Below are positions 5,153 to 44,412 of a stretch of DNA of 64,000 nt, piece by piece. The position numbers and the translations under genes are program-made. Position 1 is the first letter of the stretch; each line of letters begins with the position of its first letter. This DNA is from Clostridium sp. (lineage in GTDB: Bacteria; Bacillota; Clostridia; Peptostreptococcales; Peptostreptococcaceae): the NCBI GenBank assembly GCA_022782605.1, contig JALFMW010000316.1, positions 1 to 64,000 of the forward strand. Reading direction: 5' to 3'. The notes under the pieces were generated by a model. That model had not been told where the DNA came from and did no database searches. It saw only the letters and a list, made by a program, of their open reading frames with translations.

Positions 5153-8100
5153 CTATACTATAGCAAATGTCCAGCCTTTGTTATTCATAACATCTAATGC
5201 TAATGTTCTTAATTCTTCATCTACATTTTCTGTCTTTTCGTCGTCTATAGCGTCCATTACATTATATGTTAAACCTAATGTTTCTTCTGTTACAGTGTCT
5301 AAGTGTCTTAATATAGTTTTTGTATGAGCTGTAGTATTAATATTTTTAAAGTCATAGCTATGAATTAATGCTCCAGTTACATCAAAGTTCTTTAAGTTTT
5401 CGAATACTGCTCCATATGTAATAGATGTATCATGCCAATCATATGGATTTTGTCCAGTAGATGTTAATGAACGTACAGGCTTTTTAAGATAAGTAAAATC
5501 TAATCCATGTATTTCTTCTATATATTTATCTTCATAGAACATACCACCAAAGTCTGCTTTACTATTTGTATCTGCTAATTTAGTCATATTAAGATTAACT
5601 ACTTTTAAGCTATTGCAATATTGGAACATATTATAATAAGTAACTCCTGTACCATAATAGTCATGCATCATTAATGCACTAGGGAATTTAAAGTTAACTG
5701 TCTCTAATCTATTACAATACTCTGCAAAATAAGTAGAGTCACGTAATAAACGTCCATTGAAATTAACAGTTAGTGTTTTTATATTTTCGCAGTATCTAAA
5801 TGCTTGCTTAGCGTAAACATTATCAGTATTAACGTTTACTACTGGATTAACTAATCCATTACAACGTTCATATATATAACTGATATTAGTAACTCTGAAC
5901 GGTATCTCTTTATATATGTTATCATCTGTTAAAGAAGAGCAACGGCTACAACATCCACTCATATCAACATCATAAATAAAATCATTTGGTATAGGTATTA
6001 GTCTAGTTAATAGTTCACATTGACCGTATAAATAACCCATACTTCTTAAACCTACAGGTAATGTCTCTCCTTCAATTTCTATATCTGTTAATTTTACACA
6101 TCCAGAGAATCCACTAGACATTTCTTGAAGAGGATGATCTCGTCCTATATCTGGTAAATATACTGAAGTTAAGTTATCGCATGAACGCAAGAATCCATCT
6201 GCGTAAATAACTTTAGCTAATGTTTCAAATCTAACTCGAGTTAAAGATTTACAATTGCATAATACATTTCTTATGTCTGTACATTCTCCCATGTATGGGA
6301 AGCTTAATCCGTCATCTTCTAATGCTAAACAATTATAGTATGCACAGTTCATATTGTCAGCAGAGAAGTTAAGTTTTCCTATTCTTCTAAGTTTGCGGCA
6401 TCCTTCAAATGCACTTTCCATAGGAATAGTTTTTTTACTTTCTTTAGTTGCAGATGATGTAATGCTTCCTATTTCTTCTAAGTTAACACAACCTTGACAT
6501 AAATAGTTTATTCCCCATGTACTAGATCTAGTACCGGTAAACTTACAATCGCCTAGTTTAATTAAGCTTTCGCATCCAGAAAGTGTAGCATATGCACCAT
6601 CACAATCTGTTAAGGTGAATTCTTTTATATACTTAAGATTAGTTCCATAAAAAGGTTTAATATTATAGTTGTATCCGCCTATGTTGTTTTTATTTTTCAT
6701 TACTACTCCATCAGTTTCGTAATCTCTTTGTTCTGCTAATACAGCATATTGATACATATAATTTAGATCTTCAAATGTATTTAATTTAGGGAAGAACTTC
6801 ATAGCGAATTCCCAAGTGAAATCAGGATTAGTACAACGATAAAACATTCTGCTTGTTCTTGTTATGTTTCTTAAGAAAGATTCCCAGTCTGAAGGAGTTT
6901 TAACTTCGCACTCACCTTTTGTAAAATCTATAAATGCAAACCAGTCTGCTATATATTTCCATTTAAAATCAGAAAGATCTATTACACCATTAGGAGTAAC
7001 GTATGGTCTATCTTCAATATAGCTTTCTTTTAAATCGTTAAAGACAGGATTTACATATTGATTAACTATATCTACACCTAATAACTCTTTAGCATATGGA
7101 GCAATTATACATGTATCTTTTAATTTATGATTTCCTAAATCTACTCCTACATAACTAGGTTCATGTTCTCCTTCGAAGTAAATGCTATCTATATTAAATT
7201 TTTCTATTTTTACTTCATTATCAAAACCTTCGTCATGACGCTTATTCCATGCACAAGTTATAACAGACTCTAAAGTTTGTGGTAAAATTATTTGATGAAT
7301 ATTTTGAGTGGCTAAATTACATTCAAATATTTTTAAATTAGGGAACTTATCAGATAACTTAATAGATTCTGTTCCTGGTTTAAAAGTAAAGTAACTTAAG
7401 TTACCACCCATACCTTCACTCCAATTGCAAGGATACATTTCATGTATTCTAAATTCTTCTATGTTAGGACATTTTATAATTTTCAATGAATCCCAATCGA
7501 ATTCTCCTACTACATCGTATCTATCAGCTTCATATGTAGGTTCATTATTGTATTTATATCCGCAACAGTTAGCTCCTAACATTAATGTTTTTAATCCTGG
7601 CATAGATCTTAAAGTTAAACTATTAAGATTGCTAATTCCTCTAAAACTCATGCTAGGAACATTATGACAACTATTTTCTATATGTATATCATAACAATTA
7701 GCTAATCCATTACCCCAAGACATTAAGCGTTTCCATTCGCCTTCTGGATAATTTAAGTAATTAATTTCTGATGGTCTACATTCATTAGCATAGTTGTCAA
7801 AGAAGTTTCCACTTACACCAAAGTCTTCACTATATGTTAATCTTTCAACTAAAGGACAGTTGATCAATGTAAAGCTTGACATATTACTAGCATTTTGTTT
7901 TAAGTCATATACTTTAGAGCCATCTAATGAAGATGACGCAGGTAAACCTACTACCTTTAAACTATATTGATTACGTAATTCTAACTTTTGTAATGTTTTA
8001 GGAACATATATTTCCACTAAGTTACCACCTGATTGGTTAGTATCTATAGATTTTAATACTGTATCTGACGCATTAAGATATCTTAAGTTATTACATCCAG

Positions 8101-11100
8101 CTACTTTAAGAACTTGAGATGTTTGTAATGTACCAAGCTTATTACATCCACTTAAATCTAATCTTTGAAGATATCTACAGTTTTCTATATCTATACTTAA
8201 TAGATCTGTATTTCCAGCGCATTCTATATTAGTTAATCTGGTAGCATTACTTAAATATAAGTGTCGAGGCATTAAGCCATCTAATTTTCCTAAAGATTTA
8301 ATTTGGTCAGCACCATATATCATTATCTCTTGGTCTTTAGATTGTGGCTGATTTTCTTTACTAGCTTGGAATCTAACAACTTGATTTCTTCCTACTTTAA
8401 GCGTTTGCTCTCCTGACCTGTCAGCCATATTACGCCATTTAATAGTCAAATACATCGGTGAATAAGTTTGTATGTCTATATATGCTTCACCTATAATACC
8501 TGATCTAATAGAAATAAATGATGACGTAGCAGGGCTATAATCAAATAATGTATCACAATATAATAATCTTTCTTTTATCCATCTCTTTAAGTTATAGTAT
8601 CTATTTCCGTTAGACATCATTATATAAGTACCAGAGTCTAAATATTTCTTTTGAGTACTGAAGTTATATTGTTTTTCTGGTATTTTCTCTATTTGATTAG
8701 TAAATAAACATTCATATATTTTGTCTAATGTTAAGTTTCCGTTTCTTAAGTTATTATATTCTGCTACTAAGTCAGCAGCAAATAATGTTCTAACTCTAGA
8801 CCATAATACAGAATTAGCTGTATTGAATTCATCAATATTAACTTCTATATCAACATCATATTTAGTAGCACCTGTATTATCTAGACCCATCGCAGTATCC
8901 ATATCATAAAAATCTATATACCATTTAACTCCGTCAAATGTTACTAGTTTCATATTTTTACCAAGTGAATCTACAAGACCCAGAACCATAACTATTAAGT
9001 AATATCTTATAACTGACTCTTTATCAAAGTATGTTTCAAATTGAGTTATAAATACTTCGTCAGTTGAATCATGAACAAATGATATTAAGTTTTTAAGTTC
9101 TCTATAATCATCATTCATTGAGTTTTGTATTTCTGCAGGATATATACCACTAAAATCATTCTTATACCATGACCATTCATCTATTCCAGTATCAGGAGTC
9201 CATGGTATAAATGCACCAGCTGTTTGATTTGTATTAGCTGATACTTCATATACTTTACAAGTATTTTTATGAGCTGGTAAGTCGTATCCAAATGCAGTAC
9301 TACTATATCTATCTAAGTTGAAATCATAAACACCTTGTAGCTCTCCATTAATGTATAATAAGATTGGAAATCCTTGAACAGTTCTAGATGTTCTAGAATC
9401 TATTTTTTGAGCTGGAGTTTGATTAGTATATAAATACTTTCTAACAAAGTCAGCTAAGCCTACGTTATGAGCATTTGTTGATTCCATTAAGTTTGCTTTT
9501 AAACAGAACAGGTCTTGAGGTATACAATTAGGATATGGACTATACATTATAGGCTGTCTATTAGAATCTCTAAGTTCTAGATTAAAGTTCTTAATGTTAT
9601 ATGCTATTGAAGATGTACCTTGCCAATACATTAAACAGTTAGTGGCATCTGTTAAAGTTTGTCCATATAAATCAGAGTTAGGAGAAGTATATGTCATAGC
9701 TACTTCTACTTTATTTGTTTCAGTCATAGTTTTAAAAGCTTCAGGATCTACTGTAATGTTCATTATCGGCATTATATTTTTTAGTGGATCATTAAAATCT
9801 GATTTAAATTTTTGAAGTGATATATCTTCAATAGAAGATAAGAAGTTTTGAACTAGCTCATCAAATGTTAAGTTTCTATCATATATTCTTAAGTGTTTTA
9901 TTTCACAACTACCAAAGTCTTCAACACCTTTTTTACTATTAAGGAAAATCTTTTCTGCGTGTGCAAATGATTCTAGTATTGCAGATGTACCAATACCACT
10001 GTCACTAAGTTTACATGATTTAGTGATTACTCCATTGATAACAACATGTGCATATTTATTAGTTCTATCTATATTAAATATAACGTGTATGTATTCATCT
10101 GCACCTATAGATGCATTTATAGTTTGGTTAGCACTAGCTATATATGCTTCTCTAGTATCTATATAAACTCCTTTGAATGGAGTAAGCGTATCTGTTATAT
10201 CTAAAACTCTAGCTATGTCATTACCTACGTCTCTAGTTTTAAACACTATTTCTATAGCTCCACCATTTTTAAAGTTATTCTTAAATGGTGTCATATCTAT
10301 TTCAACATAACATGTACCGTCCATAACAAGTTCTGCCATATCAGATCCTTCAGGTTTTATCCATCCATTAGAGCCATAGTTAAAATTATATAGTTTACCT
10401 TTGTGACCTCTGAACTTATCTGTCCAAATATCTCTATCAGCGTCATCGTTAGTTCTATCTGTAGCATCAAACCAGCATAATAATGAAGCATCCATTACAG
10501 GTTGTATTCTTGTGTACTCACCTTGTACCACTTTACATGCAAATTCAGTAAAGCCGCTTATTCCTAATTCTTCATTTATTGCTTCTATTTTTAATGTATA
10601 ATCTCCTACGTCTAAACTTGTTATACTCCAATATAATAAACCTGGTCTAGTAACTATTGTCTTTTTAAGAGTACCATTTATATACATATTAACAGTAAAA
10701 TCTTCATCTCTATCTATAGCTACTCTATATGGTATACTAATAGGAATACCGCTTTCATATTCTTTTTCACTATCAAAATCAGCATAGACAATAATGTGAT
10801 TTTCGTCTACAACCAATAATGCGAATTTTTTCTTTTCTGTTATATAGTCTCCAGATTTGGCCCAATAAGTTATCTTATGAACACCTATTTGTATATCTGT
10901 TAGTTCGTAACTGTTATATCCATTAATAGATTTTATTTCTTTTAAAACTCCATCAATTTCAAAACAAGTATATATATTCTCACCAGTCATACATTCGATA
11001 GTGTATGCTAACATTATTCTATTCTTAATATTATAAATAGCATTGGTATCTGTTATCATTGTCATCTTGATACCACCAGCTGTTACTACCCATTTTAATT

Positions 11101-11578
11101 GGTTAGATAACATACCTGCTCTATCTTTTACATATATAACTATAGATATATTCTTACCAGATCCTAAAGGTGGAACTATGATATCATTATTTCCCTGTTG
11201 AATTAATTGAGTACCTCTTTCTATATTATTTACTAATATATAAGCAGTACCTTCACCTAGATTAGGAGAAGTATAGTATATTGGAATAGTAATAGAACTA
11301 GAACCATCAGAACTCTTTATTTCAAAATCAGATGTAATAGTTGGTAGTGCGCCACCGCCTCCACCACCACCTGATGGATGATTAGTAGTATGATTTTTAA
11401 GTTGAGTTTTAATGCTTTTTATATCAGTACCTATTTCTGCTAACGCACCTTCTACATTTTCAGTTTTGTAATAATCTTGCAAATCTGTAATACCCACATT
11501 AACAGCTTTAGTAGAGTTGCTGGTAGATGGCCCAGCAATCTCGATCCATTTACCGTTTACGTATCTTTTAAGTGCCAT
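5153..11578 (-). CDS. Giant tail adhesin: LamG-like, CotH-kinase-like and leucine-rich repeat domains
   Basis: A 2141-aa protein. Residues 1-20 (LKRYVNGKWIEIAG) are a common fiber N terminus. A coiled stretch and a run of seven glycines (about 70-77) follow, then Ig-like beta domains to about 350. Residues about 360-545 look like a LamG/concanavalin-like jelly roll (SLLCWFDATDRTND near its start, EIKHLRIYDRNLTFDE at its end). Residues about 590-990 resemble the CotH spore-coat kinase family: FPILLYINGELQGVYDF, later GKNMKLVTFDGVKWYIDFYD, then D892-M893-D894 before TAMG, the position of the metal-binding Asp residues in CotH. Residues about 1090-2080 are irregular BspA-type leucine-rich repeats rich in Cys and Asn. 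The end, NNKGWTFAIV, is typical of BspA-like proteins. GGGAGGTGG precedes the ATG. Likely a receptor-binding protein; kinase activity is unproven. Confidence 0.8.
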   Translation of the reverse strand: MALKRYVNGKWIEIAGPSTSNSTKAVNVGITDLQDYYKTENVEGALAEIGTDIKSIKTQLKNHTTNHPSGGGGGGGALPTITSDFEIKSSDGSSSITIPIYYTSPNLGEGTAYILVNNIERGTQLIQQGNNDIIVPPLGSGKNISIVIYVKDRAGMLSNQLKWVVTAGGIKMTMITDTNAIYNIKNRIMLAYTIECMTGENIYTCFEIDGVLKEIKSINGYNSYELTDIQIGVHKITYWAKSGDYITEKKKFALLVVDENHIIVYADFDSEKEYESGIPISIPYRVAIDRDEDFTVNMYINGTLKKTIVTRPGLLYWSITSLDVGDYTLKIEAINEELGISGFTEFACKVVQGEYTRIQPVMDASLLCWFDATDRTNDDADRDIWTDKFRGHKGKLYNFNYGSNGWIKPEGSDMAELVMDGTCYVEIDMTPFKNNFKNGGAIEIVFKTRDVGNDIARVLDITDTLTPFKGVYIDTREAYIASANQTINASIGADEYIHVIFNIDRTNKYAHVVINGVITKSCKLSDSGIGTSAILESFAHAEKIFLNSKKGVEDFGSCEIKHLRIYDRNLTFDELVQNFLSSIEDISLQKFKSDFNDPLKNIMPIMNITVDPEAFKTMTETNKVEVAMTYTSPNSDLYGQTLTDATNCLMYWQGTSSIAYNIKNFNLELRDSNRQPIMYSPYPNCIPQDLFCLKANLMESTNAHNVGLADFVRKYLYTNQTPAQKIDSRTSRTVQGFPILLYINGELQGVYDFNLDRYSSTAFGYDLPAHKNTCKVYEVSANTNQTAGAFIPWTPDTGIDEWSWYKNDFSGIYPAEIQNSMNDDYRELKNLISFVHDSTDEVFITQFETYFDKESVIRYYLIVMVLGLVDSLGKNMKLVTFDGVKWYIDFYDMDTAMGLDNTGATKYDVDIEVNIDEFNTANSVLWSRVRTLFAADLVAEYNNLRNGNLTLDKIYECLFTNQIEKIPEKQYNFSTQKKYLDSGTYIMMSNGNRYYNLKRWIKERLLYCDTLFDYSPATSSFISIRSGIIGEAYIDIQTYSPMYLTIKWRNMADRSGEQTLKVGRNQVVRFQASKENQPQSKDQEIMIYGADQIKSLGKLDGLMPRHLYLSNATRLTNIECAGNTDLLSIDIENCRYLQRLDLSGCNKLGTLQTSQVLKVAGCNNLRYLNASDTVLKSIDTNQSGGNLVEIYVPKTLQKLELRNQYSLKVVGLPASSSLDGSKVYDLKQNASNMSSFTLINCPLVERLTYSEDFGVSGNFFDNYANECRPSEINYLNYPEGEWKRLMSWGNGLANCYDIHIENSCHNVPSMSFRGISNLNSLTLRSMPGLKTLMLGANCCGYKYNNEPTYEADRYDVVGEFDWDSLKIIKCPNIEEFRIHEMYPCNWSEGMGGNLSYFTFKPGTESIKLSDKFPNLKIFECNLATQNIHQIILPQTLESVITCAWNKRHDEGFDNEVKIEKFNIDSIYFEGEHEPSYVGVDLGNHKLKDTCIIAPYAKELLGVDIVNQYVNPVFNDLKESYIEDRPYVTPNGVIDLSDFKWKYIADWFAFIDFTKGECEVKTPSDWESFLRNITRTSRMFYRCTNPDFTWEFAMKFFPKLNTFEDLNYMYQYAVLAEQRDYETDGVVMKNKNNIGGYNYNIKPFYGTNLKYIKEFTLTDCDGAYATLSGCESLIKLGDCKFTGTRSSTWGINYLCQGCVNLEEIGSITSSATKESKKTIPMESAFEGCRKLRRIGKLNFSADNMNCAYYNCLALEDDGLSFPYMGECTDIRNVLCNCKSLTRVRFETLAKVIYADGFLRSCDNLTSVYLPDIGRDHPLQEMSSGFSGCVKLTDIEIEGETLPVGLRSMGYLYGQCELLTRLIPIPNDFIYDVDMSGCCSRCSSLTDDNIYKEIPFRVTNISYIYERCNGLVNPVVNVNTDNVYAKQAFRYCENIKTLTVNFNGRLLRDSTYFAEYCNRLETVNFKFPSALMMHDYYGTGVTYYNMFQYCNSLKVVNLNMTKLADTNSKADFGGMFYEDKYIEEIHGLDFTYLKKPVRSLTSTGQNPYDWHDTSITYGAVFENLKNFDVTGALIHSYDFKNINTTAHTKTILRHLDTVTEETLGLTYNVMDAIDDEKTENVDEELRTLALDVMNNKGWTFAIV

Positions 11579-35564: not shown

Positions 35565-35921
35565 CTATTGTATATTTCCACCAGCATCATCTGTGCCAGA
35601 TGAATAGAAATCATATGTAGTAGTTATATTTGGTCTATCTACATATGGCCCAGTTATTGTGTATCCTTTATTTTTCTCAGTAACAAATACTTGTTCACCT
35701 GGAGCTGGATACCACGAAACCGATGTTTTATCAGAGGTAGTATATAGAACAGGTATATTGTAATATACCTGCACTATACCATCTCTATTAATAGTAGATA
35801 TAACACATCTATTATCATCTTTATTAGCTTCTATAACTGTAGCCACTTTCTCTTGTGGATTTGTATATTTATTATTTCCTGATATTACTTTACCTCTAAT
35901 GGCATCTGTAAAACTACTCAT
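35565..35921 (-). CDS. Baseplate spike/OB-fold protein (gp5 N-domain/gpV-like)
   Basis: I choose ATG 35921 (118 aa, MSSFTDAIRGKVISG), because CAGGAG lies 9 bases upstream; further ATGs upstream in frame would overlap that site. The gene overlaps the end of the hub gene by 8 bases (ATGAGTAG). The pattern YTNPQEKVATVIEANKDDNR, then PVLYTTSDKTSVSWYPAPGE and QVFVTEKNKGYTITGPY, fits the OB-fold domain that sits under the hub in contractile tails, where a P-x-PGEQV loop is usual. No long beta-helix needle is present, so a separate tip may be encoded elsewhere, or the 180-aa protein may supply it. Confidence 0.7.
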   Translation of the reverse strand: MSSFTDAIRGKVISGNNKYTNPQEKVATVIEANKDDNRCVISTINRDGIVQVYYNIPVLYTTSDKTSVSWYPAPGEQVFVTEKNKGYTITGPYVDRPNITTTYDFYSSGTDDAGGNIQ

Positions 35922-38900
35922 CTTCATCATCTCCTGTAGCAGATTCATATATAGTTTTTCCTGTATTATCTATAGGTGCATATACTGTATACTGTATTGT
36001 TTTACCAGTAGCTCTATATGCAAAAGTAGATTTAGCTTTTGTCCAACTAGAGTCTTTTTTAAGTTGAGCGCTAGCCGCTTCTAAAGCTGTCATATCATCA
36101 CTAGATAACGAGAACCAGAAACCAGTACTCTTCCATGAAGATGTACTATTAACTCTAGTACCACTCATAAATGTAACAGTTTTACCTTTTAGGTTTTCTG
36201 AATTTATTATAAGCTTAATTAACATCATAGCATCTTCCTGAACCATTGGTAAATCAAATATTGTAGTTTCGCCATTTCCATCTGCTATATAACGTATCTC
36301 TGTATTTTCATTTTCCATTTTTAAATTAAACGTTAATGGTGATTTCATATGTGCTAAGTCGAATTTTTTAATAATTGGATGTTGATCACTAACAAGAGCT
36401 AATTTAATATCTGGGTCATCTTCTACAGGATGTAAAGCTTTTACTTTTTCGTTAGTAGATAGTTGTTTTTGACTTACCGCTTCTCTATCTGGATCATTAT
36501 TTGGATTTGGTAAATCATGTACTCCACCTATCTGATATTTTAAGTACACTTCACTACTTCTTGGTTGGGCTTTACCACCAACGTTAGTAGAAGTATTAAA
36601 TGTTTTTATTCTAGGTTTAGTTTTCATTGCTGCTAAGTAAGTAGCACGAGCAGTATATTCTTGAGATATAGCTCCAGTCATATATTGATAGAAGGCTTCT
36701 TTATTAATACTAGAACTAGCACCATCACCATTTACTATATCATCACTAGTATCTAATCCTAAATTATGAACCCATTTATTTCTTATCTTTTCATAATTTT
36801 CATCACACATAAGAGTTTTAAATACACATCCCATAGCATTAACAAATTGATCTCCTACACCTTCATAACCGCCATCTACAGCATCCATTATTATACCTTG
36901 TATAGAGTTTTTAATTGCATTTTCACCATACTTATATCCATATACTGATCCTCTATGTCCAGCCATTCCTGCTATTAATAGTCTACCATTCTTAGTTACA
37001 GGGAATACTTTTAAGGCTTGTATATTACGTAAGAAACGGAACATAGCTTCCTTAAAGTTTTCACATACTATATATACTGCTGCACCTGCCACTACAGTAC
37101 TAGCAATAGCTACTGGATTTGTAAGAAATGCACCTAAGCTTGTAGCTCCAGAAGCAGTATCAGCAAATCCTTTTAAAAATGCACTCACTGCAGTTTGAGC
37201 CGTTTCACTAGTTACTTTTCCAGCGATTGTTCTAACTATTTCTTTACTTCCGATTTTAAGTAATCCAGTAGATCCTTTTTTAGCTGCACCTATAACTGCA
37301 TATCTAAGAGCAAGTGAACTACCAAGAGATAGCAATACTGTTTGCATAGTAGACTGATAACCAAATTCTTGACTAGAATGTTCTGCTCTTACTATAACGT
37401 CTGGTACAAATGTAGTAGTAAATCCTGTTTCTATGTTCATAGAATGTATAACTGTTTCTACTTCTACATCACCACTTACATCTTCATACATATCTACCAT
37501 AGATACTCTATCATATGGTTTTAATGATGAATCACCTATTACACATATTTCTCCTTCATACATATCTTTAACAGATTGTCTTAATACGTTTGTAGTTACT
37601 TTTTCAGCTAATGATTTATTAACTCTTCCTTGGCATTCATCGTAATTAAATTTTTCAGCTAATGCATTTAATACTGGTATATCTATACCACCGTCTCCAC
37701 CAGCTATTAATCCTGTCTCTACTGTCATAGATTTTTGATATTCAGGATAAATATTCATATCAAGATATATAGGACCAACTGATTGTTGAGCTGTACCCCA
37801 TAACCAGTCTGTACCTTCCCATGTACCAACTGCATTAGTTTTCATATTAGTTTCACTAGCCTTTAAGCTATTATATATTATGTCATTATAAGAATCATAA
37901 TAATGGAATTGTTGGAAAGGCTTTCTTTTTTCGCCTATACGTTCTTCACTTATTTCATCTTGTTGATACTCATAAGCATAATAGTGATTTGCTTTACATA
38001 AACACATTGTGCTTCTTAAACCAAAATCACGAACTGCAAAGTAGAAATCATCACCACTATTAGCACATAAGTGTCCTATCTCCCACATAGTTTTATCTTG
38101 TATATTACAGTTTATGATTGGAGCAACGTTAGCTGTACTCATATCATCAAGTAGGTCATTGACTCCGTTAAGCATTGTCTTATTAGATACTTCATACATG
38201 TTTTGTACTATTTCACTGTCTTCAAATATATCTTTAAATCTCTTATCTCCAAAGTGATACAAGCCAAATGGACTATCATAGAAGAATCTACCTTCTGTAT
38301 ATTCTCTAACTATAGTTTTAATAGCTCCACCATATTGAGCTGTAGCTAACTTAGCTAATAAGTTTCTAGGTGTTTGACCACCACGAGCAAGAGAACCACG
38401 TATATCTTTAAATAAAGTAAACCATCCTTGACTCTCATCTAAATTAATTGCAGTTAATTCACCAAGAGTATTAAGAGGATTGTTTAATTCGTGTCCATCT
38501 CCTTGAGCTACTATGTCGACAACTTCTCCACAGTTAACTTCAGCTATCTTACCATTAAATACTATAGGTAATCTAGATCCATCTGAGCCATAACCCATTC
38601 TTACATGAATACGTACACCAGGAGCAATAGCTGTAGTATCTTGTAACTGTTTACGTTGTCTTATCATATCTTCTTTAGATACATAAGCACGAGGTGAAAA
38701 GATAGATGCGAATACATCACCAAAACCGTATACGTCTACATATTGTTGATATATAGTGTTATCATATGTATCTGCATATGACATAAACATATTAGACATT
38801 GTAAATGTACATGTATCTGCAGGCATCTTTCTAGACTTAACTACTTGTAAATTAGATATACTTGACATATTATAGAAGTTATCAAATAGTTTCCACGTTC

Positions 38901-41900
38901 CTATTTGTCTACCTTCATCTACAAATAGTATGTAATAACAAGGGAACGCTCTTAACAGTCTACCTCTCTTATCACTTACACACATATCATACATTGAATG
39001 TAAAGCATAGCATCTAGGATCATCGGCCATTGCTGTATACGCTTCAGCCATAAGAGTATTAAATGCTTTTTGAGTATTGCTTGTAGTTTCACCTGAATCC
39101 ATTACGTTACAAGATCCTATCATACCTGTACCATACATAGCACTTAAAAAATTATTAAACTTACTTTCATTAGATCCACCAACATTAGAAGATAATGTAT
39201 AAGAACTTAAAGTACCGTAATCTCTATCTTTAAATAATTGTTTTATATTGCTTTGACCATTACATGAAGCTAAAGCAAAAGGATAGATTAATCTAGCACA
39301 GAATATTTTAGTATACGAATTAGGTATTTCTTCTTTTAAAGAATTAGCTATTCTTGCTAACTCATCATTCTCTTCTTTTTCGTCAGTATCGTCTCCATCG
39401 CCGTCGTCATCTTTAGCAGATCCATCTACCATTGAGTTATGGAAATTACCTTCAGATGCGAAATAGTTAACATTAGGATTACTGTTGTCTTGTAATGATC
39501 CTGCAAGATTCATTATTTCTTCTAATACACTATCCCAATCTTGAGCTATAACATCTACTTCACTAAATATGTATCCATCTATTATTAAATATTTAAGATA
39601 CATAAGCACTTCACGCATTAAAGCTTCAAAGTTAGCTGTTAATGAATTACTTATTCTGTCCATATAGTCTTCACAATCTTTAGATTTATAACCTGCGTAA
39701 TTGTAATATAAATCTATAAAACCTGTTTCACAGAATCTTTCACGACCAGCTTGTTTAGTTTTATGATACATATGTTGTTGTGAAGGATATTTAGTATCAT
39801 TACCTCTGTATGTAAAATAGTTTATTTTACTTTCTGGCTGTAGTATACTTTTTATTTGAGATTTATTATATATAGATAATTGACCAGCACCGAAGCTAAC
39901 TCCATCTTCTTTCCATGACTTATATGTTTCAGCTAATATAGCATCACCTGCAAGTCCACGTCCTTGTCTTATCTTGTTATATGGAATTCTCTTTCCAGAA
40001 TAACCTGCAGCAATTGCATCTTTATCGTCTGATCTATAATATGCATTTTGCCATTGTTGAGGTTGCCAGCTATCTTGTTTTTTAGTTTCTCCGTATGGCT
40101 CTGCTCCAGAACGTACACAAGCTAAAGCATATAGATATCCTTCTAACCAACGTATAGGATCTGAAGCTTCAAAGAATGTAGGAGTTAAGTCCAACACAGG
40201 TTTATTTTGTTGAGACGCCTCGTGTTTATTTTCGGTAGGTTTATATTGGTACTGCATAGGACATAATAATTTTAATAATTTTTCTCCATCTGTACCTATA
40301 CCAAATAAACTATCTACCGCATCATAAAGGCATTCAAATTGATCTGTAGTTCTATCTCTACTATTTATTAACGGTCTATCTAATATTCTATTAATAAGAA
40401 TAAGAGCTCTATGTCTCATATCGTAAATCTCATTAATAAACATATCGTCATTACTATCTTCGTCTTTTTTCTTTTCTTTCTTAATTCCTGAATGACTAGA
40501 GTTCTCTATTTTTTCGTTTATGTATTCACTACATAAAGGAGCAAACCAACCTGGTGCTATCTGCCATCCGTCTTCTATTCCTGTAGCTGTTAAGAATTCT
40601 ATAGCTTTAATAGTTTTCTTTCTTTGATCTTTATCAGCAAGTTTTTGTTTAGCTTTATTTTTCTTTTCTAGTTCCGTTTCTGCTTTTTGTTGCACTTCGG
40701 TCATTATATCATCATATAATTTTCCAAATCCTTTTTGATTATCCATATCTATTTCTAATCCGTCATAATCTATTCCTGGTGCTACTTCTAGGCCTATACC
40801 TACAGAATCTATAACTTGCATTTTATTTATATCATGAGCTTTTTTCTTAGATGAAGGAGCTTTATTACCTTTATCTAAAGCTTCTCTTTCTTCTACGCCA
40901 GCATTATAAGATATTCTATACAAGACAGCGTTTATAATTTCTTTAATTATTTTACTAGCATATTGGAATGAATAACACATATAGAAATCTGGATCTACAT
41001 ATACTCTATCTTCATTGGCCCACTTAGCAAATTTCCATCCTAGTTTATCTAACTCTTCTATAGTAGGCAAATCTAAGTCTGGGTATAGTTCTGCTTTAGC
41101 CATAGTATTTTGTAGGTTAAAATAATTACCTATAGTATTAGTAGCATCTGAACTAGTCATTCCATCTGTTTGAGATTTTTGTAAAGCTTCTCTTTGTCTC
41201 ATGGTTCTATCCATACTAGTTAGTTTAATAACTACGCTGTATACTCCAGGATGTCCTGGCTTAGTAGATACAGATATATTATCAAATGCTACTTCGTGTA
41301 CGCCTATCATTTGCAAGTATTCATTCTTTATTTTAAGAGGAAAACATGGCATTACACGTCTGTAATTTCTAACCATTTCTAATATAACGTGAGGTAAGTT
41401 TTTTAGAGCACTAACATAATATTCATCTGTTAAGGTCATATTAAGTTCTATGCTTACATCACTACCACCCATATATTGAGGAGCAAAACCATCAACTGCT
41501 TTTAAGTATGTTTCCGTAAAGTAATTAGACATACTAAAAGTTATACCGTCTAATTCAATAGGAATACTTTTACCAGATGCACTTTGAAGATATGGTACGA
41601 ACTTCATATTTCTTGGATCTTTATAATCATAATATTGATCATATACTTCTTTCTTTTCTTTAGTAGTAGATTCTTTACTATCACCTGAAGAATACTCTAT
41701 TTCAATTCCAGGTTGCATATTTCTTATGTAAACATTGAAGCATATACTTTTACCTTTATCTTCTATAGAATATGCCTCCATTGTAACTGCTGAAGCTACT
41801 AAATTACTTCCATTGAATACAGGAGTAACTTTGTAAGCTACGTGCTTGTCTGGATTATCTTTTAAGTATTTAGCTACAAGATTTTCATAGTAAAGCATAC

Positions 41901-44412
41901 CGCCTGTTTCAGGTTTAGGATTATCAAAATCAGCACCAACATTTAGATATCTAGTACCAGTAATTAAGTTCTTTTCATTAGCGCCTTGTCCTGTTAATTG
42001 ATAACCAATTAAGTGACATCGGTTATATAAGTATCCATCTTTATTGCCATCGCTTTTTAATGAATCATATTTTTTATTCTTACTCCAACCAGAAGGTTTA
42101 ACAGAAGATAAGTCTATATTTCTTTCTCCCTCAGGCATCATACTTTTATTAAGTATAGCGAATGCAGGGCCACATCTACCGTATCTATCTAAATTAGTAT
42201 AATCTTCTTTATTAGTAGGCTTTAAACTTCCTGTATCAAAGTATGGCTTATTATCATTAAGTACAACTATAAAGCTTTCTTGATTTTCGTCATCATTGTT
42301 GTCTCCATTATCTAAATCACCAAAGTCTACTTGTCCATATTTATCTCTAGCTTTCTTTATTTGTAATGCATATTTCAACCACGCTGTATCTGGTATATAT
42401 AATTCAAAATTAGAATCTGTTAAGTCAGAAGACTTATATATATTCTTATGAGAGAATACAAAGTCTTTATAATTATATGAATTATATTTATATTCTTCAA
42501 GCATATCTCCAAATATTAACCCACGTTGATAATAATATCTAAATAATTCCCAATTGAAATGTTGAGCAAATATAGGTTGCGTTTGAGATATCTCAGTTGA
42601 ATTTACATCATATTCAGGAAGAGGCAAGTCAGGCATAAATACTCTATAGTTAAAATCACGAAGAGTAAGTATTACCTTTAATAGTCTAGGAAAACCGTCA
42701 ACAGTAGATGCACTAATATTAACTAAGCTAACTGCTTCTATATTTAAGATATCATTTATATAATGATTTTCTATAGGTAAGAATGGAGACACTCTAAATT
42801 GAGCTATTAAAGCTCTTAGTCCATTCATAAAATACGTTATTGATTCTCCATTGGGAGTAGTTGTTGTATAAGGAATTCCGTTTATTCCATAGTCTTTATT
42901 AAAATATAATTCTAGCTCTATAAGCTCTTCTATATTGGCTCTATTTTTCATCATAGAACCCTTACCTCTTATAATAGGTAATTTCTCATAATCAAGAGTA
43001 GAAGAGGTATGTATTGCTTCAGGAGGAATTAAAAATAACGTATCTCCTAGTAGGACTGTATGATCACGGGCTTCTCCAAAATCTATACCTGTTAACTTCT
43101 TATGTAAAGCTATTCTATCTTCATATGATTTTTTACCGTCTTCTGTAAGTGAATCAGCGTATTTATAATTATTGCTTACATATGTCCATTGTTTAAATGC
43201 ATCAGAAGTACCACCGTATAATTCATTTAAAGCTGCATCATAAAAGTCATTATTGTATCCACAGAAATCTGTTCCTTTTAATACGTATTTAGATAAGTTT
43301 CTCCATACACTTCCGTCACTTGTCTTTACCTTAATGTAAACATTTCCTAGCATTTGTCCAAATGCATCGCAACCGAAAGGTAAAAAACTAGCGCTTGATA
43401 AATCAAACTTCATTATGTCACGTCTAAATATATCATCTACTAATTGTCCTATAAGAGCAGGGCTAAAGAAAAATGAATTATAATATAGGGCTTTTTTATC
43501 TACTTTTTTACCTATAACTGCATTTCTATCTAATATAACAATTATATCTTCTATTTCATTTTTTTCTATTAATTCACGTACTCTAGCTTGTGCTTCATAT
43601 CCATCTTTTATTGTTTCGCTACCCCATTCATTAGAGGCGGCTATTACATATGTAGCTGTTTCTTTATCTATCTCTACATCTTCTAAATAGTCTTTAGCAT
43701 TCATATCTTCTATTATTTGACAATATGTATTTCCTGATTTTAAAAATCTTAACTTATCATTGTCTTTGTAATTAGTAATAGTCCACTTTCTAGGATCACT
43801 AGATTTATTTCTATTTATCTTATGTGGCATTACTACATAACCTCTTATTTGTGCAGTTTTATAATCTACAGTTTTTATATCTTGATCCTTATATTTAATA
43901 GCACACGCAGTATAATGACATATTTTACTAGCAGATATAGATGCAGATCTTACTTGAAGATTTCTACAAGTAATCTTATTATTTGTTTGTGCATACTCTT
44001 TAAAAGTTTTGTATGTTGTATCGTTAACAGTAAAAGAGCCACCTGCATTTAAATCATCTAAGTCAAAAGTCCAAGTATCTCCAGTTATATTTCCTAACTC
44101 CCAGGCGCCTTTACCTATTTTAAATTTATTTGCTCTGAGTACAAAACATTCTTCTTTTTCATGATAACCTAATTTGGTTATTGGAGGCTTTTCTGTATAA
44201 TAAGCAACATCTTCAAGTTTGTCTTTTTTACCTTTTTTCTTAGATATATCTTTTTGATAAGAATCTAATACGTTCCATACACAATCTTCTTTTAGCATAT
44301 CTTCTATACTAGGTAAAAATTTATTTATATCAATGTCATAACTCTCTTTTCTACTTTTAGTCATCTGTTGATATTTCTTAACAATTTCATCATAATCTTT
44401 ATTACTTGCCAA
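35914..44412 (-). CDS. Giant baseplate hub protein with EndA-type nuclease domain
   Basis: A 2832-aa protein starting at TTG 44412, supported by GGACGGTGAG; the nearby ATG is out of frame. A hub-type domain (about 527-589, PFLPIENHYIND...NISASTVDGFPR) recurs at about 1005-1071. Between the copies, residues about 708-908 match the DNA/RNA non-specific endonuclease (EndA/DNA-entry) family: GYLYNRCHLIGYQLTG with catalytic His at 800 (usual DRGH, here NRCH), then GANEKNLITGTRYLNV, and VYIRNMQPGIEIEY. Residues about 1900-1990 (GVRIHVRMGYGSDGSRLPIV, then AEVNCGEVVDIVAQGDGHEL) fit the gp27/XkdQ-like hub. A hydrophobic segment lies near 2430-2452 (PVAIASTVVAGAAVYIV). The hub identity is well supported by position before the OB protein; nuclease activity is predicted only. 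Confidence 0.8.
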   Translation of the reverse strand: MASNKDYDEIVKKYQQMTKSRKESYDIDINKFLPSIEDMLKEDCVWNVLDSYQKDISKKKGKKDKLEDVAYYTEKPPITKLGYHEKEECFVLRANKFKIGKGAWELGNITGDTWTFDLDDLNAGGSFTVNDTTYKTFKEYAQTNNKITCRNLQVRSASISASKICHYTACAIKYKDQDIKTVDYKTAQIRGYVVMPHKINRNKSSDPRKWTITNYKDNDKLRFLKSGNTYCQIIEDMNAKDYLEDVEIDKETATYVIAASNEWGSETIKDGYEAQARVRELIEKNEIEDIIVILDRNAVIGKKVDKKALYYNSFFFSPALIGQLVDDIFRRDIMKFDLSSASFLPFGCDAFGQMLGNVYIKVKTSDGSVWRNLSKYVLKGTDFCGYNNDFYDAALNELYGGTSDAFKQWTYVSNNYKYADSLTEDGKKSYEDRIALHKKLTGIDFGEARDHTVLLGDTLFLIPPEAIHTSSTLDYEKLPIIRGKGSMMKNRANIEELIELELYFNKDYGINGIPYTTTTPNGESITYFMNGLRALIAQFRVSPFLPIENHYINDILNIEAVSLVNISASTVDGFPRLLKVILTLRDFNYRVFMPDLPLPEYDVNSTEISQTQPIFAQHFNWELFRYYYQRGLIFGDMLEEYKYNSYNYKDFVFSHKNIYKSSDLTDSNFELYIPDTAWLKYALQIKKARDKYGQVDFGDLDNGDNNDDENQESFIVVLNDNKPYFDTGSLKPTNKEDYTNLDRYGRCGPAFAILNKSMMPEGERNIDLSSVKPSGWSKNKKYDSLKSDGNKDGYLYNRCHLIGYQLTGQGANEKNLITGTRYLNVGADFDNPKPETGGMLYYENLVAKYLKDNPDKHVAYKVTPVFNGSNLVASAVTMEAYSIEDKGKSICFNVYIRNMQPGIEIEYSSGDSKESTTKEKKEVYDQYYDYKDPRNMKFVPYLQSASGKSIPIELDGITFSMSNYFTETYLKAVDGFAPQYMGGSDVSIELNMTLTDEYYVSALKNLPHVILEMVRNYRRVMPCFPLKIKNEYLQMIGVHEVAFDNISVSTKPGHPGVYSVVIKLTSMDRTMRQREALQKSQTDGMTSSDATNTIGNYFNLQNTMAKAELYPDLDLPTIEELDKLGWKFAKWANEDRVYVDPDFYMCYSFQYASKIIKEIINAVLYRISYNAGVEEREALDKGNKAPSSKKKAHDINKMQVIDSVGIGLEVAPGIDYDGLEIDMDNQKGFGKLYDDIMTEVQQKAETELEKKNKAKQKLADKDQRKKTIKAIEFLTATGIEDGWQIAPGWFAPLCSEYINEKIENSSHSGIKKEKKKDEDSNDDMFINEIYDMRHRALILINRILDRPLINSRDRTTDQFECLYDAVDSLFGIGTDGEKLLKLLCPMQYQYKPTENKHEASQQNKPVLDLTPTFFEASDPIRWLEGYLYALACVRSGAEPYGETKKQDSWQPQQWQNAYYRSDDKDAIAAGYSGKRIPYNKIRQGRGLAGDAILAETYKSWKEDGVSFGAGQLSIYNKSQIKSILQPESKINYFTYRGNDTKYPSQQHMYHKTKQAGRERFCETGFIDLYYNYAGYKSKDCEDYMDRISNSLTANFEALMREVLMYLKYLIIDGYIFSEVDVIAQDWDSVLEEIMNLAGSLQDNSNPNVNYFASEGNFHNSMVDGSAKDDDGDGDDTDEKEENDELARIANSLKEEIPNSYTKIFCARLIYPFALASCNGQSNIKQLFKDRDYGTLSSYTLSSNVGGSNESKFNNFLSAMYGTGMIGSCNVMDSGETTSNTQKAFNTLMAEAYTAMADDPRCYALHSMYDMCVSDKRGRLLRAFPCYYILFVDEGRQIGTWKLFDNFYNMSSISNLQVVKSRKMPADTCTFTMSNMFMSYADTYDNTIYQQYVDVYGFGDVFASIFSPRAYVSKEDMIRQRKQLQDTTAIAPGVRIHVRMGYGSDGSRLPIVFNGKIAEVNCGEVVDIVAQGDGHELNNPLNTLGELTAINLDESQGWFTLFKDIRGSLARGGQTPRNLLAKLATAQYGGAIKTIVREYTEGRFFYDSPFGLYHFGDKRFKDIFEDSEIVQNMYEVSNKTMLNGVNDLLDDMSTANVAPIINCNIQDKTMWEIGHLCANSGDDFYFAVRDFGLRSTMCLCKANHYYAYEYQQDEISEERIGEKRKPFQQFHYYDSYNDIIYNSLKASETNMKTNAVGTWEGTDWLWGTAQQSVGPIYLDMNIYPEYQKSMTVETGLIAGGDGGIDIPVLNALAEKFNYDECQGRVNKSLAEKVTTNVLRQSVKDMYEGEICVIGDSSLKPYDRVSMVDMYEDVSGDVEVETVIHSMNIETGFTTTFVPDVIVRAEHSSQEFGYQSTMQTVLLSLGSSLALRYAVIGAAKKGSTGLLKIGSKEIVRTIAGKVTSETAQTAVSAFLKGFADTASGATSLGAFLTNPVAIASTVVAGAAVYIVCENFKEAMFRFLRNIQALKVFPVTKNGRLLIAGMAGHRGSVYGYKYGENAIKNSIQGIIMDAVDGGYEGVGDQFVNAMGCVFKTLMCDENYEKIRNKWVHNLGLDTSDDIVNGDGASSSINKEAFYQYMTGAISQEYTARATYLAAMKTKPRIKTFNTSTNVGGKAQPRSSEVYLKYQIGGVHDLPNPNNDPDREAVSQKQLSTNEKVKALHPVEDDPDIKLALVSDQHPIIKKFDLAHMKSPLTFNLKMENENTEIRYIADGNGETTIFDLPMVQEDAMMLIKLIINSENLKGKTVTFMSGTRVNSTSSWKSTGFWFSLSSDDMTALEAASAQLKKDSSWTKAKSTFAYRATGKTIQYTVYAPIDNTGKTIYESATGDDEDE
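41200..41400 (-). repeat. Hub domain copy 2
   Basis: Encodes about residues 1005-1071 of the hub (LPHVILEMVRNYRRVMPCFP, VHEVAFDNISVSTKPGHPG, then VVIKLTSMDRTMRQ). It aligns by eye with copy 1 in length and pattern (FR/YR, PFLP/PCFP, NIS-STV-GFPR / NISVSTKPGHPG, LTLRDFNYR / LTSMDRTMR). Ends are approximate. Confidence 0.6.
42645..42833 (-). repeat. Hub domain copy 1
   Basis: Encodes about residues 527-589 of the hub (FMNGLRALIAQFRVSPFLPI, then AVSLVNISASTVDGFPRLLK and LTLRDFNYR). The nuclease domain lies between this copy and copy 2. Ends are approximate. Confidence 0.6.

Follow-up and report, generated by a model that had tools for sequence, protein, structure and literature searches.

A phage baseplate-hub-like protein with an embedded EndA/streptodornase-type nuclease domain and a degenerate staphylococcal-nuclease-like domain

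Enzymes and nuclease domains on phage baseplate hubs

To our knowledge, the enzymes carried on phage hubs are almost entirely cell-wall hydrolases. The tail lysozyme gp5 of T4 resembles the protein described here in being an enzyme embedded in the hub of every virion, but its substrate is peptidoglycan and not nucleic acid. A hub nuclease was mentioned in the 2007 analysis of phage 0305phi8-36, which described an N-terminal staphylococcal nuclease (SNase) on the hub of BtI1, a phage-like element of Bacillus thuringiensis israelensis (RBTH_07687), called its use obscure, and presented hub domains as exchangeable (Hardies et al., 2007; PMC2147016).

We analyzed a 64,000-nucleotide stretch of a Clostridium sp. 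contig (JALFMW010000316.1, positions 1 to 64,000; hereafter the window), which encodes a 2832 amino acid hub-like protein. Likened by description, the BtI1 hub, which is of the T4 gp27 type, resembles this protein in being a large-phage hub with a nuclease; BtI1 has an N-terminal SNase, whereas the window hub has an EndA-type domain between two tube-like domains. Its homologues include the hubs of Bacillus phage KLEB27-3 (annotated as 'putative baseplate protein') and Moorella phage MTATph1 (annotated as 'endolysin'). Both share two tube-like domains (d1 and d2) and a core with the window hub and carry an SNase domain where the window hub has a degenerate one, but they keep the SNase catalytic residues and lack the nuclease domain PF13930; the MTATph1 hub also has a weak C-terminal match to VanY/M15 peptidases. 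Searches of the open-licence literature for virion- or tail-associated nucleases, for the thermonuclease domain and for KLEB27-3 or MTATph1 returned nothing relevant beyond PMC2147016. An SNase on a hub is already known, from that one remark and from annotation; an EndA-type hub domain, the lineage-wide presence of SNase domains with retained sites, and the apparent exchange of one nuclease for another were not found in this literature, and the first and the last of these appear to be new.

The hub protein and its embedded nuclease domain

The hub protein is encoded by a single open ORF, with the following features nearby and within it:

35914..44412, minus strand: baseplate-hub-like protein of 2832 aa, one open ORF with a TTG start, assigned by homology to phage hubs
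33667-34503: baseplate-wedge-like gene near the hub gene
42535..43020, minus strand: first tube-like domain, d1 (hub aa 465-626), from an HMM over hubs
40960..41544, minus strand: second tube-like domain, d2 (aa 957-1151), directly after the linker with the nuclease, from an HMM over hubs
37312..39000, minus strand: conserved hub core (aa 1805-2367), kept in all compared hubs

The gene lies between a gene of tape-measure size and the baseplate wedge genes, as seen by comparison with the gene order of KLEB27-3, and both this position and the homology across d1, d2 and the core place its product with the KLEB27-3/MTATph1-type hubs of large Firmicutes phages. The predicted structure of d1 resembles, with moderate scores (Z about 6-8), tube or baseplate proteins of pyocin R2 (6u5b), diffocin (8v3w) and AFP (6rao), while d2 has a weak Pfam match to DUF6046 (E=0.002). 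The core matches PHROG 20474 (E=1e-156), which is annotated as 'endolysin', and the core of the KLEB27-3 hub also has a match (E=7e-14) in Acinetobacter phage ME3, to a protein annotated as 'baseplate hub protein'. A PDB sequence search with the core gave no match to the gp27 fold, and the hints of a gp27-type fold are all weak (VgrG_rel, E=0.074; YQBQ-like, E=0.008, in the hub of L011). The 104,150 bp contig with the hub gene also encodes a major head protein and a portal, so that it represents a phage and not a headless device. Where the gene cluster ends in tail-fibre genes, ORF 5153-11578 (minus strand) encodes a 2141-aa protein with a CotH kinase domain (PF08757, E=1.6e-15) at 8567-9619, corresponding to aa 654-1004.

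Between d1 and d2 we identified a nuclease domain, for which the following positions are relevant:

41674..42267, minus strand: EndA/streptodornase-type DNA/RNA nuclease domain (hub aa 716-913), from PF13930, the family profile and the predicted fold
42172..42174, minus strand: Cys747 of the GRCG motif
42016-42018, minus strand: Cys799 of the NRCH motif
42013..42015, minus strand: His800, the His of NRCH and predicted general base, aligned with EndA His160 and Spd1 His121
41968..41970, minus strand: Asn815, at the position of EndA Asn182
41941..41943, minus strand: Asn824, predicted metal ligand, aligned with EndA Asn191 and Spd1 Asn145
41884..41886, minus strand: Glu843, at the position of Spd1 Glu164

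A sequence-only reading of this DNA had proposed a nuclease embedded in the hub at 41690-42300, and this was borne out with slightly different edges. PF13930 (DNA/RNA non-specific endonuclease, Endonuclea_NS_2) matches aa 734-880 with E=1.5e-20 and 74.1 bits against a cut-off of 27, covering profile positions 8-128 of 132, and the family profile matches, within an uninterrupted frame of 2844 codons, with E=1.8e-79. The motifs quoted in that reading, including His800 within NRCH, are present in the ORF. The beta-beta-alpha metal site for which it had proposed a structure prediction also agrees with the family: a structural model that drew on 17 relatives (mean pLDDT 73.7) superposes on EndA (3owv) with Z=19.3 over 180 residues (rmsd 2.3), on NucA of S. 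agalactiae (4qh0) with Z=19.3, on Sda1 with 18.6 and on Spd1 with 16.3, the scores for EndoG and the Serratia nuclease being lower (about 9-10). The proposed likeness to the DNA-entry nucleases holds for family and fold, but by sequence the domain is nearer to streptodornase D and Spd1 than to EndA, as the nearest solved structures are Sda1 (5fgw, E=1.2e-21) and Spd1 (2xgr, E=2.2e-18), with a weaker match to EndA (3owv, E=8.9e-6).

Residues H160, N182 and N191 of EndA and H121, N145 and E164 of Spd1 have been reported to be important (PMC9294136). The correspondence of the window residues to those of EndA is our own reading of the alignments, and that to Spd1 was likewise taken from alignments; His800, Asn815, Asn824 and Glu843 are all invariant across the 18 aligned nuclease domains. 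Family, fold, catalytic residues and hub homology together support the presence of a complete EndA/streptodornase-type domain within a baseplate-hub protein, and we infer that, on the assembled virion, it would be a non-specific nuclease that depends on Mg. Sda1, Spd1, EndA and NucA share with it the fold (Z 16-19) and the positions of the catalytic His, Asn and Glu, but they stand alone, are secreted or anchored, and have DRGH, DRSH or NRGH motifs, whereas the window domain has NRCH, a second cysteine and a place within a virion protein. Being internal to a 2832-aa hub, the domain thus differs from the stand-alone secreted enzymes in delivery and not in domain family.

The NRCH motif, which had been pointed out as a departure from the DRGH of pneumococcal EndA, is indeed present, but it is no oddity, as it is usual in the closest relatives. 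It was found in five of the five closest relatives first compared, in 10/10 bacterial loci read and in 22 of 23 viral nuclease loci (the remaining one has NRSH), and the cysteines of GRCG and NRCH occur together, by motif, in 27/33 relatives. An inactive or aberrant site was considered as an explanation for NRCH and was ruled out by this subfamily-wide occurrence. Cys747 and Cys799 may form a disulfide, and as the two are conserved together, the domain may need oxidising surroundings to fold or to be active. The sequences closest to the window domain are NRCH nucleases of Clostridia and their phages, such as that of Blautia phage NatCom_2932, which have the same NRCH and GRCG cysteines. The window domain is 46-58% identical to these stand-alone enzymes, which are about 200-500 aa long and mostly bear a lipobox, a signal-like or a membrane segment. 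Unlike the window domain, they carry such a signal, lipobox or membrane anchor, and none of those seen here lies in a hub; their N-termini suggest that they act outside the cytoplasm. Three Ca. Heliusvirales gut phages (L006, L007 and L008) encode NRCH nucleases as separate proteins that have a lipobox or membrane segment and are annotated as hypothetical; the three genes read lie outside the tail genes, and each may encode a surface nuclease.

Among 391 genomes of the host's class, 76 had a match to the nuclease, at about 88 places, and the window frame (2844 codons) is the sole giant among them, all others having at most 500 aa. The window domain is thus an enzyme common in Clostridia of which the hub has captured a copy. 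No second hub-type fusion was found in the 391 genomes, no EndA-type domain occurs in the other hubs among 35 distinct hub sequences, and neither d1 nor d2 occurs at any of the 23 viral nuclease loci.

The SNase-like domain and its apparent replacement

The N-terminal region of the window hub, upstream of d1 in the protein, contains a second nuclease-related domain:

43243..44115, minus strand: N-terminal SNase-like domain (hub aa about 100-390), from hhalign, alignment columns and a leave-one-out test

An N-terminal SNase domain with its catalytic residues kept is present in 13/33 hub homologues, including the seven nearest to the window hub; besides MTATph1 (PF00565, E=6e-9, above the cut-off), hubs with the domain include those of KLEB27-3, L009, L011, L014 and L040, and IMG/VR phages are among the carriers. 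A profile of these SNase domains together with the window's sister hubs has the S. aureus thermonuclease as its best PDB match (E=2e-6). The same SNase-d1 arrangement is found on two plasmids of 220-240 kb (Bacillus velezensis and Cytobacillus), where the genes are annotated as 'nuclease'.

In the window hub, T110, S160, K163 and Q353 stand in place of SNase D19, D40, E43 and R87. In an alignment of 12 hub N-termini, 11 of the 11 other hubs keep D19, E43 and R87 where the window has T, K and Q; the D40 position is D, N or Q in the relatives and S in the window. Equivalents of D21 (D112), T22 and R35 (R155) are kept. The window domain thus lacks the residues expected of an active SNase at D40, E43 and R87. 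No other aligned hub is changed at D19, E43 or R87, and L030 has one D>N change elsewhere in the SNase region. When each hub was left out in turn, the window hub was found to have lost 3/10 invariant sites of the SNase region and to have kept 33/33 in d1 (Fisher p about 0.01, from a single comparison of sites that are not independent). It should be noted that PF00565 gives no direct Pfam match to the window N-terminus and that a structure search with its model, in which the domain was modelled together with d1, matched only the d1 part. At the level of sequence, the identification of this region as an SNase relic rests on hhalign against the SNase domains of the sister clade (P=96.7, E=4.4e-10) and on the motifs. 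No SNase above the cut-off was found elsewhere in the window assembly.

A hub tree based on d1, d2 and the core (838 columns, 33 hubs) places the window hub as sister to that of L021 (support 100/100), within a clade of eight (100/99) whose remaining seven members keep the SNase residues. This placement puts both the loss of the SNase site and the gain of the EndA-type domain on the window branch. The d1-d2 linkers of L021 and of the window are about equal in length and homologous at both ends, but unrelated where the nuclease sits; the nuclease has therefore replaced the middle of the linker. A Pfam scan of the sister-hub linkers found no other enzyme. Taken as one example from one fragmented assembly (403 contigs), this suggests that one nuclease took over from an unrelated one on the hub of this phage. 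As SNase domains occur in related hubs and an EndA-type domain in the window hub, a hub nuclease appears to recur in the lineage; an intact SNase and an EndA-type domain are both absent from 19/33 hubs, indicating that neither the fold nor the lineage requires a hub nuclease. Near the hubs without an N-terminal SNase, no convincing separate SNase or EndA-type gene was found.

In the L038 hub (8347-9030) the SNase match is weak and the motifs are degraded (DGGT, and changed Arg and Glu positions), apparently a separate loss, and this hub contains no EndA-type domain or other recognised substitute. The L011 hub has a LysM-like match between SNase and d1 (aa 398-453, E=2.6e-4). The 19 hubs with neither nuclease include short ones of about 1215 aa, which occur on a contig from Clostridioides difficile and in genomes from the family of the window's host, one of these genomes being complete (L059, L018:7122-10766).

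Possible role of the hub nuclease

We consider it probable that the hub is a modular protein that often displays a nuclease, that its ancestral SNase lost its catalytic residues in the window phage, and that an unrelated EndA-type nuclease sits in the linker and is active outside the cell. An N-terminal SNase domain would have been the ancestral module of the window clade. A beta-beta-alpha-metal nuclease from the stand-alone secreted or lipoprotein subfamily of Clostridia would have entered the middle of the d1-d2 linker, so that each virion would expose a few copies of a non-specific nuclease on its hub. Putative targets are DNA at the cell surface, in the matrix or in lysis debris, which could trap particles or block access to the wall. 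The Cys747-Cys799 pair may stabilise the domain, or may limit its activity to the oxidising surroundings outside the cell. Action outside the cytoplasm is favoured because the relatives act there, because a nuclease inside the cell together with the phage genome would damage that genome, and because EndA is very toxic in the cytoplasm, as production of the wild-type enzyme in E. coli has shown (PMC9294136). Cleavage of DNA outside the cell is therefore the most likely function, with activity, role, exposure and target all as we infer them.

A doubtful but not implausible alternative is that the nuclease acts mainly at lysis, freeing new virions from host DNA that tethers them to debris. Every new virion has a hub, and phage-encoded DNases, those of streptococcal phages among them, have been suggested to aid phage spread by liquefying DNA-rich material (PMC9294136); yet a free secreted enzyme would be better suited to this task than the few hub copies of each virion. 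It is unlikely that the domain is catalytically silent and binds only nucleic acid or the cell surface. Hub domains do drift, as seen in the SNase-like domain of the same protein, but all four catalytic positions of the EndA-type domain are intact, and its identity to the stand-alone enzymes is high enough (46-58%) to argue for activity.

Effector domains occur on hub-class proteins of some contractile systems, and delivery of the nuclease into the host, where, as a toxin-like effector, it would attack the chromosome or other DNA borne by the host, might be proposed by analogy. Hub proteins such as T4 gp27/gp5 normally stay at the envelope, however, a non-specific nuclease that entered with the phage genome would cut that genome too, and the closest relatives are enzymes acting outside the cytoplasm. 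Although the high toxicity of EndA in E. coli would fit such an attack (PMC9294136), we regard this explanation as quite improbable, and entry followed by attack on host DNA as the least likely of the roles proposed for the domain in the sequence-only reading. That a host nuclease gene and the phage hub gene were joined as a chimera during assembly is hardly credible: the fusion was seen once and the assembly is fragmented, but the frame is open through both junctions, GC is uniform across the domain, the assembly has no other PF13930 copy, the nuclease begins and ends between domains of the hub, and the sequence on either side of it matches that of the sister hub L021.

Returning to a nuclease that acts outside the cell, a broader interpretation, which we put forward tentatively and hold at somewhat less than even, is that the hub nuclease is a recurring virion function in this lineage and that in the window phage a dead nuclease was succeeded, within a retained hub frame, by an unrelated and possibly disulfide-gated one. 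A hub nuclease that recurs, and that is seemingly replaced by a non-homologous one when lost, would point to selection for nucleic-acid cutting on the virion. The 'obscure' hub SNase of 2007 would then become a testable question, namely which DNA a phage tail must cut and when, and a further question is how an enzyme toxic in the cytoplasm stays quiet during virion assembly.

Finally, Bacillus, Cytobacillus and Paenibacillus plasmids with sizes of about 200-240 kb (NZ_AP024502.1, NZ_CP065512.1 and others) also carry hub homologues, which suggests a plasmid lifestyle for some of these phages.
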